A stretch of 38,011 bases of DNA, from the NCBI GenBank assembly GCA_004143605.1, contig AWVY01000012.1, positions 1-38,011 of the forward strand, written 5' to 3'. Shown in pieces: positions 5,891-32,442 of the stretch. The position numbers were made by a program, and so were the translations under genes. The notes below the pieces were generated by a model, which worked only from the letters and a program-made list of their open reading frames with translations, had not been told where the DNA came from and did not search any database. This stretch comes from Desulforamulus aquiferis (lineage in GTDB: Bacteria; Bacillota; Desulfotomaculia; Desulfotomaculales; Desulfotomaculaceae). Numbering within the stretch: the first letter of the stretch is position 1; every line of letters starts with the position of its first letter.

Positions 5891-6589
5891 TTAAACATGG
5901 TTTAATTCCTTGGCTAGCTTATTTATGGAGCCGCTTTCAATGCGAGAAATAAAGGATCTAGATATGGCTAAGCGCTCCCCAACCTCCCGCTGTGTTAACT
6001 CTGGTTGACCTGCCAAACCAAACCTGAGCCTTATTACCGCCTGCTCCCTCTGGGACAATTTTTTTAGGGCCTTTTTTAATCTCTCAGTCTCCAAATTATT
6101 TTCCACCTGTTCTTCAACAGGAATGTCATTGGCCATTAGGGTATCTTGCAACTCTAATGGTGCACCGTCCTTATCAAAGTCAAGGGGTTCTGAAATTGAA
6201 ACACATCTTAAGTCATTTTTATGCTTTCGTAAACTCATAAGCATCTCATTTTGAATGCAGACCCCTGCATAGGTGGAAAACTTATTCGCCCGGGACGGGT
6301 TATAGGTTTCCACAGCTTTTATTAAGCCAACCACTCCACATTGGAATAAATCTTGTTTTTCTAAACCCCGCTCATTCAGCTTATTAGCAATCTTAGCAAC
6401 CAACCTTAAATTTCTCTCGATTAAAATAGTTCTTGCAATGCTGTCTCCTTTCTGCAGTCTTTCTATTAGTTCCCGTTCTTCTTCTGGCGACAAAGCTTCC
6501 GGCAAATGACCTGAGGAAATATATGATACTAGGATGAGCAAACCATTTACGACCGATAGAGCAATCAAAGTAATTATCCCCGGTGTCAA
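5891..6589 (-). CDS. sigK: RNA polymerase sporulation sigma factor SigK (pro-sigma-K type)
   Basis: Sigma-K drives late mother-cell transcription during sporulation. The 232-residue product starts with a hydrophobic pro-sequence (LLILVSYISSGHLPEALS, about residues 17-34) like that removed by SpoIVFB in Bacillus. Sigma-70 region 2 follows (ARTILIERNLRLVAKIANK, then QDLFQCGVVGLIKAVETY), and region 4 ends in a helix-turn-helix (TQREVGERLAISRSFISRIE). I choose TTG 6589, seven bases after AGGAGGG. The ATG at 6596 touches that site and is out of frame. The gene is uninterrupted, with no skin-type element. Its hydrophobic start favours sigma-K over sigma-E. Confidence 0.88.
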   Translation of the reverse strand: MTPGIITLIALSVVNGLLILVSYISSGHLPEALSPEEERELIERLQKGDSIARTILIERNLRLVAKIANKLNERGLEKQDLFQCGVVGLIKAVETYNPSRANKFSTYAGVCIQNEMLMSLRKHKNDLRCVSISEPLDFDKDGAPLELQDTLMANDIPVEEQVENNLETERLKKALKKLSQREQAVIRLRFGLAGQPELTQREVGERLAISRSFISRIESGSINKLAKELNHV

Positions 6590-6747: not shown

Positions 6748-7354
6748 ATGTTTTTAAGAAAAAAAGATGTTTTCCACAAAACTTTTGAGGATATCTCACT
6801 AAATCTAATTGAGTCTGCAGAAATACTTCTTAGTTCCTTTCATAGCCAGGACCCTTCTTTTTTCTGAATAATATCCACTTTCTAGAGAAAAAGACTAACC
6901 GACTCGTTGAAGTAATAATAAAAGAACTGAATAGCACCTTTGTTACACCATTAGAGCGAGATGATATCTTCCATTTGGCCATCAAATTAGACAAGATCCT
7001 AGATTTAATGGAAAAATCAGCAGTATATCTAGCTACATATGAATCTCCAAGGGTACCAGACTTTGAAAAAATAGCCAATATAATTCTCTCGTGTTGTAAA
7101 GAAATCAAAAATTCAATCGAAAAACTCTCCAGAAAAAAGTTTTCAGATGTGAGACTACATACCACGAGAATATACCGCCTAGAGCAGGAAGCCCGAAGCA
7201 ACCTATTTCAGAGCCTAAAGTTTTATCAACCACTTCTGAAGAGCCCCTGTTATTTATAAAATACAGGGATATTCTGATTTTATTAGGACAAATATTAGCT
7301 TCCCTTGTTGAGGCAGCACATTGCCTCAATATTATTATTTTAAAAAATTGTTAG
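6748..7354 (+). CDS. DUF47 family (PhoU-like) phosphate transport accessory protein (two frameshifts)
   Basis: This all-helical PhoU-like protein is usually encoded next to PiT transporters and thought to modulate them. The start is ATG 6748 (MFLRKKDVFHKTFEDIS). Two single-base losses break the frame, near 6864 in a T/C run and near 7222 in a T-run. Repair gives about 202 residues, the family length, with LERDDIFHLAIKLDKILDLMEKSA in the middle and EAAHCLNIIILKNC at the end. The stop at 7354 is 12 bases before the PiT gene, so the two are cotranscribed. Confidence 0.78.
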
Positions 7355-8421: not shown

Positions 8422-9671
8422 CTATATGAATGGTGCTAATTTCCCGGCAGCTATTATTTTGGAAATCCTTTTGGCTTCCTGACAAACTACCCAGAAAAGA
8501 CAATTCTCCTCAGAAGCCCTAAAATGATCACCTGTTTGCTCAAAGTTTACAGCATAGCAGCCACCTGCACAGGTTCTGCTACAGGCTTTGCAATGACTTG
8601 GTTGACGGCTGAGAGGGTTCTGAAAGGGTTCTAAAAGTTCAAAGTTAATTTCTGTATTTACATTACCAACCACGTATCTACCCGATTCATTAGTAAGTCC
8701 AAGTAACTTTGAGCAGGGACTAACCTCTCCGTTTGGTGCAATAGCTAAGGAAGTACTGCCCGCTCGGCAGCCCCACCCTGGGTGATTATTTTCATCCTGT
8801 TCAAATTCTTCAATAAAATGGGAACTCCCTGTTGCTTTAACTTATGATAATCCTGAAGAATATCCATTAGATTAAGTCCATATTTTTCTATTTGCCCCTT
8901 ATCCCAAAGGGTTTCTCCTTGGGCTGGGGCAATGATTAATTGATTAATGCCAAGGTTTACAATATGATGAAAATCCTCTCTCATGGTATCAATGGCCTCG
9001 GTGCTAACAGTCATTCTAGCCCCTAACCAAGGCTGGTATTTCTTGATCGTTGGTATTAATTGGGCAATTTTAGCCCATGAACCCTCTCCACTTCTGGTAA
9101 CCCGGTACCTGTCATGGGTCTTTGGCCCACCGTCGATACTTATCATGGCATTAATTTTGTGCTGGGCAAAGAACTTTAATATATCTTCATCAATCAAGGT
9201 ACCATTGGTGGTTAAGGCCCAAGTAACCTTTAAGCCTCCTTTACCGGCTGCTTCTTCAGCATAGGGCACAATCTTTTTAATTAGCTCGTATTCTAAAAGG
9301 GGTTCACCCCCGATGAGGGTGATAATTATACTTGAAAAAGCTGCTTTTTCTATTAGAAGATCCACTGCCTTTTTAGCAGTTTCAAAGCTCATTCTATCCG
9401 TAGGAGACTTACGATGTACAAAGCAGTATTCACAAGTTAAATTACAGTTAAATGTGAGGTTTAGTTCGATGGCCGCAAGACCAAGCTTACCTAAACTAGT
9501 CTCTTGCTGAATTAACTCAGTAAGCCTCCAGGCCGTATCCTCTGTTAACAAAAATCTTTGTTGTAAGTTGTCAGCTAACTCCCGGGGGGAGTAACCGGGG
9601 GTTGACCTCCGGTACTCCCCTACGAAATCTACAATTTGATCTAACCAGACATTTGAGCTACTATCCTTCAT
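8422..9671 (-). CDS. Radical SAM/SPASM-type peptide-modifying enzyme (one frameshift)
   Basis: The enzyme has about 416 residues after repair. The N-terminal 60 residues form a small helical region that may bind a peptide. Next comes a radical SAM barrel with CNLTCEYC (Cys76, 80, 83) and the GGEPLL motif. The C-terminal part is SPASM-like and Cys-rich: GGCRAG, then APNGEVSPCSK, HCKACSRTCAGGC and ENCLFW, enough to hold auxiliary iron-sulfur clusters. One G is missing in a G-run near 8772; adding it turns a premature stop into the GGCRAGSTSLAIAPNG segment. I favour ATG 9671, ten bases after AGGA; TTG 9677 is possible. The gene lies 53 bp downstream of a Cys-rich repeat protein on the same strand, which points to post-translational modification of that protein. 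The exact reaction is unknown. Confidence 0.85.
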
Positions 9672-9724
9672 TAGCAATTATTCCTTTTCTTCCATTTTGG
9701 GGCTATTAAATCCCGGGGAAATCC

Positions 9725-10353
9725 CTATAAAGCTTGACCCGGACAGGCAAAACCACCTGGTGTTGGACACTGGGAGCCAAACTGAAAGGGTCCACAAGGT
9801 TGTTGGAATTGGAAGGGACCACAAGGTTGTTGGAACTGGAAGGGTCCACAGGGCTGCTGGAATTGGAACGGACCGCAGGGTGGCGGCGATGGAACAAATC
9901 GGAAGTAGCAGGGCTGTGTAAAGGGTCTTCCGCAGGGTATGAAATGGATCTAAAGCCGCAGGGCTGATAAAATTGAAACCTTGGACATCCAGCCTGGGGT
10001 CCCGCAGGAGTATATACACCGGGGCAGGCAAATGTATAAACACAGTTATCGGGCGGTATGCACACATACTGATTTAAACAGGTAAACCCAGATACCGAAG
10101 TACAATTTATTCTATTCTCATCCGTGCTTTTTCTGAGCTTTTCGGCTAAGTAATCCATGTTTTCCTCGGTTAGGTTTTGTACAGATTCCCACACCACCTG
10201 AATTGCAGAGATTGGAACGGTGCCTATTCCTTCGTTACTTTCTAGACGAACAAATTGCTCACTCACTGCGATGATCTTCCCAGATATTTTTCTACCATTT
10301 ACTAATTCAATGGTAATTTTTTTACCATAATCGGCCTGAAGTTGCTCTAGCAT
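9725..10353 (-). CDS. Cys-rich repeat protein with LSm-like N-terminus, possible radical SAM substrate (one frameshift)
   Basis: The start is ATG 10353 after AGGAGG. Residues 1-55 form an LSm-like beta fold (GKKITIELVNGRKISGKIIAV), then a helix to about 78; residues 1-83 contain no Cys. After one missing C near 9937 is restored, the rest reads as a 126-residue tail with 15 Cys, many spaced nine residues apart. Four consecutive units share PCGPFQF (Cys160, 169, 178, 187), most followed by QQ. The tail ends PTPGGFACPGQAL. Without repair, the printed frame turns into a Ser/Pro/Asn-rich nonsense tail. A Cys-free N-terminus, Cys-rich repeated tail and adjacent radical SAM/SPASM gene look like precursor and maturase of a modified peptide. 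A spore-coat protein is the main alternative, since LSm-like domains occur in such proteins. Confidence 0.75.
9788..9883. repeat. 27-bp tandem repeat coding PCGPFQFQQ units
   Basis: Three full 27-bp units (9788-9814, 9815-9841, 9842-9868) and a partial fourth lie in the Cys-rich gene. They differ mostly at third codon positions. The nine-residue unit is kept in frame, so it is a coding repeat. Confidence 0.9.
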
Positions 10354-10458
10354 CTTCCGTCCTCCTTTGTGGATATTCTTTCCTTTTTTAGAATATGAGG
10401 TAGCTTATGGATTGGTTACATGGACTATTTTAAAAAAATGAATATAACTATTGACGTT

Positions 10459-10991: not shown

Positions 10992-11275
10992 GTGAGTCAT
11001 TTTCCAAATATAAGGGATCAATTGTTTCATGTGCCAAGCCAACAAGTCGGGACTGCATTGGGAGGTTGCCTAACCAGTAATTTAGTCACAGTTAGATTTA
11101 AAAAGGGACTGTGCTCTCCATTAGGTTGGCAGAATTGGTTCCTAATAAAAATCAGCCCTGCCCCCACTGTGGACGCCAGTTAAAACCAGACCGGGACGGT
11201 GTCTGCAAAGATTGTTATACCGTTTTATGTCCCATTTGCCAGGAGTGCAAATGCACTGAAGCAAAAATGATATAA
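10992..11275 (+). CDS. Small zinc-ribbon-like protein of unknown function (one frameshift)
   Basis: GTG 10992 follows GGAGGTG by six bases. One G is missing in a G-run near 11107; with it restored the product has about 94 residues. The N-terminal 60 are a mixed beta-type region (VGTALGGCLTSNLVTVRFKKG then TVLSIRLAEL). The last 30 hold eight Cys arranged as CPHCG, CKDC, CPIC and CKC, a likely double zinc or iron knuckle. I do not recognise the family. It lies 70 bases after the Fur-controlled DUF2325 gene with no terminator between, so it may share the iron response. Confidence 0.6.
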
Positions 11276-28817: not shown

Positions 28818-30459
28818 ATGGCCATGAAGAAACTGTCTAAGTCGCGGTACCGCAAATCACGCACCTATGAAAGAGCCACAACCATGCCGCTGAGAACAGA
28901 GAAGCTCAGGGTGCAAGAGGTAGTCGCTGAAAATACTGAGCAGACCATAGTGCGTGGTATTATCTCTGTACCAGAAGCTAAACCAGAGGTTGACAGGTCC
29001 TTTCAACCTATGCAGTAGGAAGGCTTAAAAAAGTAAACATAATTCCCAACAAGGTAGTTGTTGAGGGCGTTTTAAAGCTGGAAGTTATGTACGAGGCCTT
29101 TAAAAAGGACCAGTCTGTTCACACCTTTCATGAGGAACTAGACTTTACCGACTTTGTTGATGTTCCAGGTGCCAGGCCGGGCATGGAAGTTGAAGTTGAC
29201 ATTGTAGTAGAGGATGTGAGCTTGACCAGAGACCCCAAATGTGCCGACGATTGGGATGTTGCTGCGGTAATAATGGTTACCGTAAGGGTAACTGAGGAAG
29301 TTGAAGTTGACGCCCTGGTGGAATGTCCAGAAGGTTTTGAGTGTGAGTCTGAAGTTATGACTTTGGAGCATGTTGTTGGTTCCCGGACAAAGCAGGTACT
29401 TATCGACCAGGAATTTGAACTACCCAGGATAAACCCGATATTGAGAAGGTTCACAAGTGCATGTGTGATGTGGAAATAACCAACGCCAAAATAATTAAGA
29501 ACAAGGTAATTATTGATGGCGAAGTGGATATGGAATGCGTTTACACGGCACTCAAGGATGACCAGACAGTTCACACCTTGAGCCAGACCTTTAAATTTAA
29601 TACATTCATTGAAATTCCAGGTGCAGAGCAGGATATGGACGTCTATGTTGACGTTATGGTCGAAACTTGTGATGCGGATGTATCGGATACAGATGCTTGC
29701 AATATATCTGTTACCATCGTTCTCAAGGTGAGGGCCCGGGTGGTTGAGGATCGCGAGGTCAATGTAATTACAGAGGTTATAGGTGCCGAAACTGTTAAGA
29801 CTGCCAACTTGGATGTTGAAAGCCTTGTAGGGGAAGCTTGCAAGCAGGTAGTTGTCAGGGACGCCCAAGAACCTCCCGCAGAGAAGCCAGATATTGACAA
29901 GGTTAAGGAAGTAATTATCCGTGATATCACAATTAAGGATAAGAATGTTATTAATGACAAAGTATTGGTCCGGGGAACTATAGAGTTTCAGGTGCTATAT
30001 GTTGCATTAAAGAAAGATCAAGCAGTTCATATGATCCATAGAAAGGTTTCCTTTAAGACATTTATTGATGTTCCCGGTGCCCGTCCGGACGACAGTGTAG
30101 AGATTGTTGTAAATGTAGAGTGGACCAATGCTAAGATGGATAGCTGCGATTTGGTATTAGAGGCTGTCTTAGAAGTTTGTGCCAGGGTAACTGAGACTGT
30201 TAGACGACAAGTTGTTACCGAGGTAATACTACCTGAGCCCACTCCTGAACCAACTCCTACTCCCACAGTGGAGCCAGAAGTTTGTGTGCCAGGCACCACC
30301 TTTAATTATACCATTGCCAGGGGTGATACTTTGGCCAGGTTAGCCCAGCGCTTTGGGACCACTGTGCAGGCCATCTTGGCTGTTAATCCACAAATTACTG
30401 ATCCTGATTCCTTGAACGTAGGCGATGTTATTAGAATTCCTTGCGTAGCCAAGGGTTAA
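28818..30459 (+). CDS. SPOCS (DUF3794) x3 plus LysM protein, probable spore coat morphogen (two frameshifts)
   Basis: The 547-residue protein has a basic N-terminus (KKLSKSRYRKSRTYERA) and three SPOCS domains. They are recognisable by recurring VxGxxxxxVxY, the DQxVHT segment, FxxFxDVPGARPxxxVEVD and a late RVTE(E/T)V. A Pro/Thr/Glu linker leads to a C-terminal LysM (YTIARGDTLARLAQRFGTT). Losses near 29009 and 29430 split it; repair gives AVGRLKKVNIIPNKV and DKPDIEKVHKCMC. SPOCS and LysM occur together in SpoVID- and SafA-type coat proteins that bind cortex peptidoglycan. AAAGGAGG precedes the ATG. Confidence 0.86.
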
Positions 30460-31746: not shown

Positions 31747-32442
31747 GTGGAGAATAGTAAGGGAGAAGAAAGGCTTAATTCAAGGGATGAAACGAAGCAC
31801 CAGGAACAGGGGGAATTACTGTCCCAAGGCCTGCACGAATCATTGCTAAAGCTGTTAAATTTTCAGGCAATTAATGGTGCAGACCAAAATAATACGATGA
31901 TACTTTTAGCCTTGATGAATCTGTTAGGAATTGTCAACTGCATGAACAAAATTCTTCCAGATGACCAAAAGGTCAGGGGAACCGGAGAATTGGCTGGCCA
32001 AATAGCCGGCATGCTAGGGGGTACTGTCCCTGACCCAACGCCTGCAGCAACACAAAATCCTGTGCCAGGAATGGGTTATATAGACCCCGGGCTTTTAGCT
32101 GCACTGGCTGGAATGCTTAGTGGCCCTCACCAGCGGGGTCAAGGACAGGGGGAGCCTGTAAAAGGTGGTATTGACCCCGCCCTGCTGGCAGCCTTAGCTG
32201 GAATGCTGGGAGGGGGGCAGGGAGCAGGGGGAATTAACCCCGCCGCCCTAGTGGGAGTGCTGGCAAATATGATGGGTCCCGGACATATGCGTCAACCGGA
32301 ACCACCAAAGAATAAAGAGGTTCCGAAAAAGGAAGAAGTTGTTCCCCAACCCGAAGAAAAAAGCAAACCAGTTAGGGAAATACCAAGGAAAGAGTTTCCG
32401 GGTCCCAGGGGAATCCTTAAGTGGGATCCTAGACTGGGTTAA
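31747..32442 (+). CDS. Repeat-containing Gly/Pro-rich protein of unknown function
   Basis: GTG 31747 follows AAAGGGGGG. The 231-residue product has a charged N-terminus, then a helical part (LLALMNLLGIVNCMNKILP). Three internal repeats follow: YIDPGLLAALAGML, GIDPALLAALAGML and GINPAALVGVLANMM, at about residues 112-180. The tail is Lys/Glu/Pro-rich (EPPKNKEVPKKEEVVPQPEEK). There is no signal peptide. I do not recognise a family. It leads a short gene group with two YbaB-like proteins. The frame is intact. Confidence 0.6.
   Translation: MENSKGEERLNSRDETKHQEQGELLSQGLHESLLKLLNFQAINGADQNNTMILLALMNLLGIVNCMNKILPDDQKVRGTGELAGQIAGMLGGTVPDPTPAATQNPVPGMGYIDPGLLAALAGMLSGPHQRGQGQGEPVKGGIDPALLAALAGMLGGGQGAGGINPAALVGVLANMMGPGHMRQPEPPKNKEVPKKEEVVPQPEEKSKPVREIPRKEFPGPRGILKWDPRLG

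Follow-up and report, generated by a model that had tools for sequence, protein, structure and literature searches.

Small peptides are the main known products of radical SAM peptide maturases. The enzyme CteB forms thioethers, and the SCIFF precursors are short, unlike the precursor described here. Disulfides have been proposed as the link between the Cys-rich proteins of spore coats and exosporia. The thioether made by PapB joins Cys to Asp within CX3D motifs, i.e., at the same spacing as the Cys and aromatic residues discussed below (PMC9413430). With regard to late sporulation promoters, sigma-E and sigma-K recognize a common -10 element and differ at -35, where ATA is contrasted with AC (PMC3789822); the B. 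subtilis sigma-K consensus is available (PMC3416734).

The stretch of DNA analyzed here (the window; 38,011 nucleotides) comes from a Desulforamulus-like genome and carries, on the minus strand, a gene for an LSm-fold Cys-repeat protein followed by a gene for a radical SAM/SPASM enzyme. The gene pairing, its conserved order, strict co-occurrence, the LSm fold, the C-X3-aromatic rule, the sigma-K-type promoter and the extra unlinked precursor genes were all computed. The best explanation, to which we assign a probability of about 0.6 with no modification having been measured, is a sigma-K-controlled coat protein with an LSm leader or scaffold and a Cys tail bearing i-to-i+4 thioethers. No description of such a system was found in the literature, for which only open-access papers were available.

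Organization of the locus

The 215-aa ORF at 9706-10353(-) encodes the LSm-like N-terminus and seven Cys before it departs from the repeat frame, while the frame open from 9949 to 9725 supplies eight further Cys and an in-register series of exactly four PCGPFQF units (Table 1). Together these frames account for the 15 Cys and the four units of the original prediction. A spacing of about nine residues between Cys had also been proposed, but this regularity is largely a property of the CGPFQF units; the Cys-Cys spacings seen most often in relatives are 6, 8 and 9. A second frame break occurs near 9730, and the conserved C-terminus (FIGISPGFNSPKMEEKE, stop) is found in the frame ending at 9678. 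In relatives the repeat protein ends CPGQAFIGI...KE, stop, directly ahead of the enzyme start (gap of ~0-5 bp). Because the conserved C-terminus continues to 9678 in this third frame, the 53-bp gap previously placed between the two genes is not real, and the enzyme gene follows the repeat-protein gene directly. The enzyme gene changes frame near 8800, with its SPASM half (GCRAG, SPCSK, CxxCxxxCxGGC) reaching 8422 in the other frame. The presence of a radical SAM enzyme with SPASM-like Cys clusters downstream on the same strand, as predicted, is confirmed by Pfam SPASM and tblastn matches.

The frameshifts of the two window genes are common to no relative, and the frameshift reading of both genes in the original prediction is right because both are unbroken in relatives. 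The divergent gene at 10992-11260 is also broken in the window, a DUF47-like gene around 6864-7220 appears broken too, and the window genome has a completeness score of 72% at 3.57 Mb. A genuine frameshift, a pseudogene and a programmed shift were each considered and rejected, since the frames of relatives are open and neighboring genes are broken as well. As far as sequence comparison can tell, assembly errors are the simplest and the likelier reading of the frame breaks. The divergent gene encodes an 88-90 aa Cys-rich protein (FPxIxxxxFHVxxQKP...CxxC...CxxC) without a Pfam family, which lies beside the operon in the genus.

Table 1. Positions of the features of the locus and of the divergent Cys-rich protein (window coordinates unless a locus is named).
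Feature	Position	Strand	Basis or remark
LSm/Hfq-fold N-terminal domain and linker helix (~76 aa) of the Cys-repeat protein	10126..10353	-	alignment, AF2 model
Conserved Cys module C-x7-C-LNQY-V-C-IPPD-N-C-VYTF-A-C-PGVY	9949..10125	-	kept in most relatives
Repeat tail (four PCGPFQF units), in another frame owing to a frameshift near 9937	9725..9949	-	in-frame and intact in relatives
C-terminal end of repeat protein (FIGISPGFNSPKMEEKE*), third frame	9678..9733	-	second frame break; comparison with relatives
N-terminal portion of the radical SAM/SPASM enzyme, containing CxxxCxxC and GGEPLLEY	8745..9677	-	
C-terminal portion of the radical SAM/SPASM enzyme, containing the Cys clusters of SPASM, in the other frame	8422..8841	-	Pfam SPASM 4.5e-5; tblastn with intact relatives; whole-genome search
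Sigma-K-type promoter ACC-N16-CATATTCT	10390..10416	-	36 nt 5' of repeat-protein start codon
Divergent Cys-rich protein, window copy	10992-11260	+	
Divergent Cys-rich protein, other copies	L005:389-661, L019:3381-3647, L020:422-688, L021:3220-3486		

Distribution of the gene pair

A search with the enzyme recovered relatives at 59-65% identity in 18 further genomes of the order, and an LSm-like Cys-tail gene lies directly upstream of it on the same strand in all 18. Of the 113 genomes of the order, the precursor-alignment search picked out the same 19 (window included), with none carrying only one of the two genes. Identical sets of 19 would have a chance of 6e-22 if the genomes were independent, which they are not fully. 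Outside the order, the pair is found again in Sporomusa malonica and in two additional lineages; the genes are adjacent in S. malonica, a bog Peptococcaceae (G478), G218 and G161. The enzyme was found in 6 of 398 genomes of a phylum sample, each with an LSm-Cys gene beside it; that of G161 was recognized by reading neighboring ORFs and not by profile. Named hosts include Desulforamulus aeronauticus and several Pelotomaculum in addition to S. malonica and the bog Peptococcaceae. The original prediction would have been refuted had homologs of the repeat protein never neighbored a radical SAM gene, and it withstood this test, as every genome of the order sample with the repeat protein has the enzyme, with a precursor directly upstream. 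The gene pairing is real and conserved. The system is missing from some genomes of the genus, indicating that sporulation does not generally depend on it.

Many genomes contain further, unlinked copies of the repeat-protein gene (e.g., L101, L103, L124, L125, L129, and G218 contigs 25 and 112). In several genomes these unlinked genes have the same promoter as the linked ones, which suggests one enzyme for several substrates. At L101:1483-3292, an unlinked copy faces a gene encoding LysM and cell-wall-hydrolase (SleB-type) domains.

The radical SAM/SPASM enzyme

The enzyme passes the cut-offs for Radical_SAM (PF04055, 60 bits; cut-off 29.5) and SPASM (PF13186, 24.1 and 25.5 bits; cut-off 21.5), and the Cys residues of the CxxxCxxC motif (C75, C79 and C82) are invariant in the enzyme alignment. 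The best named family is PapB (NCBIfam NF047865, rSAM_PapB), for which the scores of 185-225 bits do not meet the cut-off of 340; scores against SCIFF/CteB (TIGR03974) are 129-162 bits against a cut-off of 425. Membership in either family was rejected on these grounds, and no specific curated family scores over its cut-off. The closest solved structure by sequence is that of CteB (PDB 5wgg, 2.8e-46). The AF2 model of the enzyme (pLDDT 60) is too weak for a fold search, and its N-terminus is modeled, with moderate confidence, as helices only and without a recognition-element fold, in which it would differ from PapB.

The repeat protein and the C-X3-aromatic rule

In the AF2 model of the D. aeronauticus homolog, residues 2-56 form a helix and five strands (pLDDT ~84). 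Foldseek matches this region to Hfq with a probability of 1.00 and TM(target) values of 0.64-0.79, so that the fold bears out the LSm-like N-terminus originally proposed. Pfam scores of the domain are under the cut-offs (LSM, 15.7 vs 23.4; Hfq, 12.3 vs 27), and the remaining evidence comprises weak LSM Pfam and LSm4 PDB matches. A link of the LSm part to DUF2642 rests on one weak match only (E 0.04). No curated family in Pfam or NCBIfam matches the repeat protein over its cut-off, and no match to Cys-rich coat or exosporium families was found in these databases. Precursors are roughly 150-340 aa long and begin directly with the folded LSm domain instead of a signal peptide.

The Cys tail is predicted to be disordered (pLDDT ~30, AF2), and its geometry therefore cannot be inferred from the model. 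Its sequence is of two kinds, a conserved Cys module (C..F.C...Y.C.PPD.C...F.CPG.Y across relatives) and lineage-specific repeats. The module is kept in most relatives and is the only Cys part in S. malonica, whereas the repeats vary by lineage (CGPFQFGQP, CTFNFQQP, CTAQYMQP, CYQPF, CFERFGQP, CRERFGPPPP). Tails in relatives of the order contain 13-27 Cys (n=18).

One rule is common to these differing repeats, namely an aromatic residue four positions after Cys (C-X3-[FY]). Over 376 Cys, the +4 residue is F/Y/W in 44%, Gln in 22% and D/E in 6%, the last value indicating that the precursors do not follow the CX3D acceptor motif. An aromatic residue is found at +4 for 15/15 Cys in L133, 22/24 in L034 and 10/15 in L031 (p<0.001 vs shuffles), and for 14/26 in L014, which is also enriched relative to shuffles. 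The test was applied to single proteins with Cys held fixed in the shuffles; repeats within one protein are not independent, although the lineages are. The rule is not uniform because the CGPFQF units have Gln at +4, with Phe at +3 and +5. These units are an exception for which the proposed mechanism must account.

Promoter and probable sporulation control

A sigma-K-type motif, AAC(C/A)AA-N16-CATAnnnT(A/G), is found upstream of 24/25 precursor genes, linked and unlinked, at 26-44 nt 5' of the start and with a spacer of exactly 16 bp in 23 of the 24, compared with a mean of 2.8 and a maximum of 7 in shuffles. The strict form of the motif precedes 22/25 precursor genes vs 3/153 upstream regions of other genes; a fourth listed control match is the window's own precursor and was excluded. 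The upstream regions of related precursor genes are not independent. The precursor genes of L034 and L145 have no recognizable sigma-K motif. Sigma-K is the fitting factor because the -35 element is AC and not ATA. A sigma-E promoter was rejected, as its pattern is present in only 1/25 precursor genes, no more than in shuffles. Matches to the sigma-K model were found in 12/12 genomes checked, five of them over the curated cut-off. This promoter lends strong support to the spore-coat role raised in the original prediction, while no support was found for the iron-responsive role suggested alongside it. The interpretation as a whole was largely right, with errors in some gene details and on iron regulation.

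Several observations concern sporulation genes more generally. The sigK gene is in two pieces kilobases apart in G051:C36, G053:C13, G055:C37, G056:C1 (pieces ~79 kb apart), G058:C61 and G094:C1, and a split sigK in several relatives suggests skin-like elements. A second sigma-K-like sigma factor (232 aa, with a hydrophobic N-terminus like that of pro-sigma-K) is encoded at 5891-6589(-), ~2 kb from the operon. Its counterparts map close to the operon in each of the five genus genomes carrying the operon and occur also in genus genomes without it; a sigma-K-like motif precedes the D. aeronauticus ortholog. Elsewhere in the window, a SPOCS (SipL) and LysM protein of spore morphogenetic type is encoded at 29461-30459(+), and a 231-aa ORF at 31747-32442(+), without a Pfam match, has a sigma-K-like motif upstream.

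Proposed mechanism and alternatives

The above features suggest a mechanism in which sigma-K RNA polymerase would transcribe the LSm-fold Cys-tail protein together with its own radical SAM/SPASM enzyme as a late-sporulation mother-cell operon. The LSm domain may serve as a folded leader recognized by the enzyme, and possibly as a ring-forming scaffold; both roles are inferred. The enzyme would then join Cys sulfurs to the residues at +4 (C-X3-[F/Y], in some cases with D or Q), as in the CX3D links made by PapB, and the cross-linked tails would finally join the spore coat. It is very likely, by inference, that the repeat protein is the substrate of the enzyme, and its location in the spore coat is likewise inferred and likely; the thioether chemistry with an i+4 acceptor is unproven, and we give it about even odds. 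Taken together, adjacency, co-occurrence and the promoter common to unlinked copies are best read as one enzyme serving several structural substrates late in sporulation.

A disulfide-linked coat protein, similar to CotY, CsxA and CdeC, with the enzyme modifying non-Cys side chains (e.g., a carbon-carbon link or other change at aromatics), is unlikely but deserves serious consideration. A precedent for a Cys-rich spore protein under sigma-K control is C. difficile CD1067 (PMC3738446), and the aromatics of the tail are as regular as its Cys. However, the nearest characterized enzymes are thioether formers acting on Cys, and what unrelated repeats conserve best is the distance from Cys to the aromatic residue. 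A metal- or iron-binding protein with an enzyme needed for the metal site would agree with the high Cys content and with the iron response suggested at the outset. This possibility is very improbable given the long Cys spacings, the conservation of Cys-aromatic positions rather than CxxC or His motifs, and the sporulation-type promoter. It is very improbable that a secreted antimicrobial or signal peptide (ranthipeptide- or sactipeptide-like) is cut from the long precursor, even though the enzyme belongs to the superfamily of known peptide maturases: the precursor length, the folded N-terminal domain and the sigma-K-type mother-cell promoter all argue against it, and no exporter or protease gene adjoining the pair was seen in the neighboring ORF lists inspected. 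Finally, chance neighbors that do not act together, for which no supporting point was found, can practically be dismissed in view of the strict co-occurrence and adjacency over several lineages.

Returning to the thioether-linked coat protein, a broader picture is that spores of several anaerobic Firmicutes have coat tails stitched by a dedicated radical SAM enzyme through Cys-to-aromatic thioethers at C-X3-[F/Y], with an LSm ring as leader and scaffold. This picture is tentative, and in our judgment rather less than an even bet. If true, both the chemistry, with an aromatic residue as acceptor at i+4, and the principle by which the coat is assembled, without disulfides, would be new. Once shown, cross-linking of this kind would amount to a new way of armoring bacterial spores. 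Cross-linking would explain part of the spore robustness of sulfate-reducing and syntrophic anaerobes, as thioethers outlast reducing habitats where disulfides would not. Importantly, C-X3-aromatic is a simple substrate rule that is testable with one enzyme and one protein.

More distant relatives

Enzymes with 35-39% identity (L037, L041, L042) or 32% identity (L038) are found in Planctomycetota, Chthonomonadales/Armatimonadota-type bacteria and others, each near a twin-arginine Cys-rich gene with several C-X3-aromatic-x-Cys stretches. To our knowledge, these Planctomycetota and Armatimonadota-type phyla form no endospores. In contrast to the system described above, the precursors have a twin-arginine-like signal and no LSm domain. 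The +4 enrichment is weaker in these four loci, reaching significance by itself only in L037. These observations suggest a single enzyme clade that serves two precursor kinds, the loci possibly forming an undescribed sister system; this is no more than a lead. Separately, a Brocadiaceae protein of 284 aa (L046:2039-2893) with 27 Cys, several in CxxxD, adjoins a SCIFF/PapB-like enzyme.

Comparison with known systems

The N-terminal domain shares the fold of Hfq and LSm proteins, but here it is fused to a Cys-repeat tail, and there is no evidence of RNA binding. The coat and exosporium proteins CotY, ExsY, CsxA, CdeC and CD1067 are similarly Cys-rich, and we know of no modifying radical SAM partner for any of them; sigma-K control has been reported for CD1067 (PMC3738446). 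Like SCIFF/CteB, the locus combines a radical SAM and SPASM enzyme with a Cys-rich substrate encoded beside it. The probable substrate here is structural and large: it is under sporulation control, has as many as 27 Cys in one chain and is encoded in several unlinked copies per genome. PapA/PapB (freyrasin, a ranthipeptide) provides the best-scoring named enzyme family, and PapA is likewise a Cys-rich substrate with the partner four residues from Cys (CX3D, PMC9413430), compared with C-X3-[FY] here. In contrast to PapB, the acceptor position is mostly aromatic rather than acidic, and, unlike PapA, the substrate is large, with an LSm fold and a sporulation-type promoter upstream of its gene. 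The system is a variant of radical SAM peptide maturation not described in the open-access literature searched; a spore coat built with thioethers would be the larger step.
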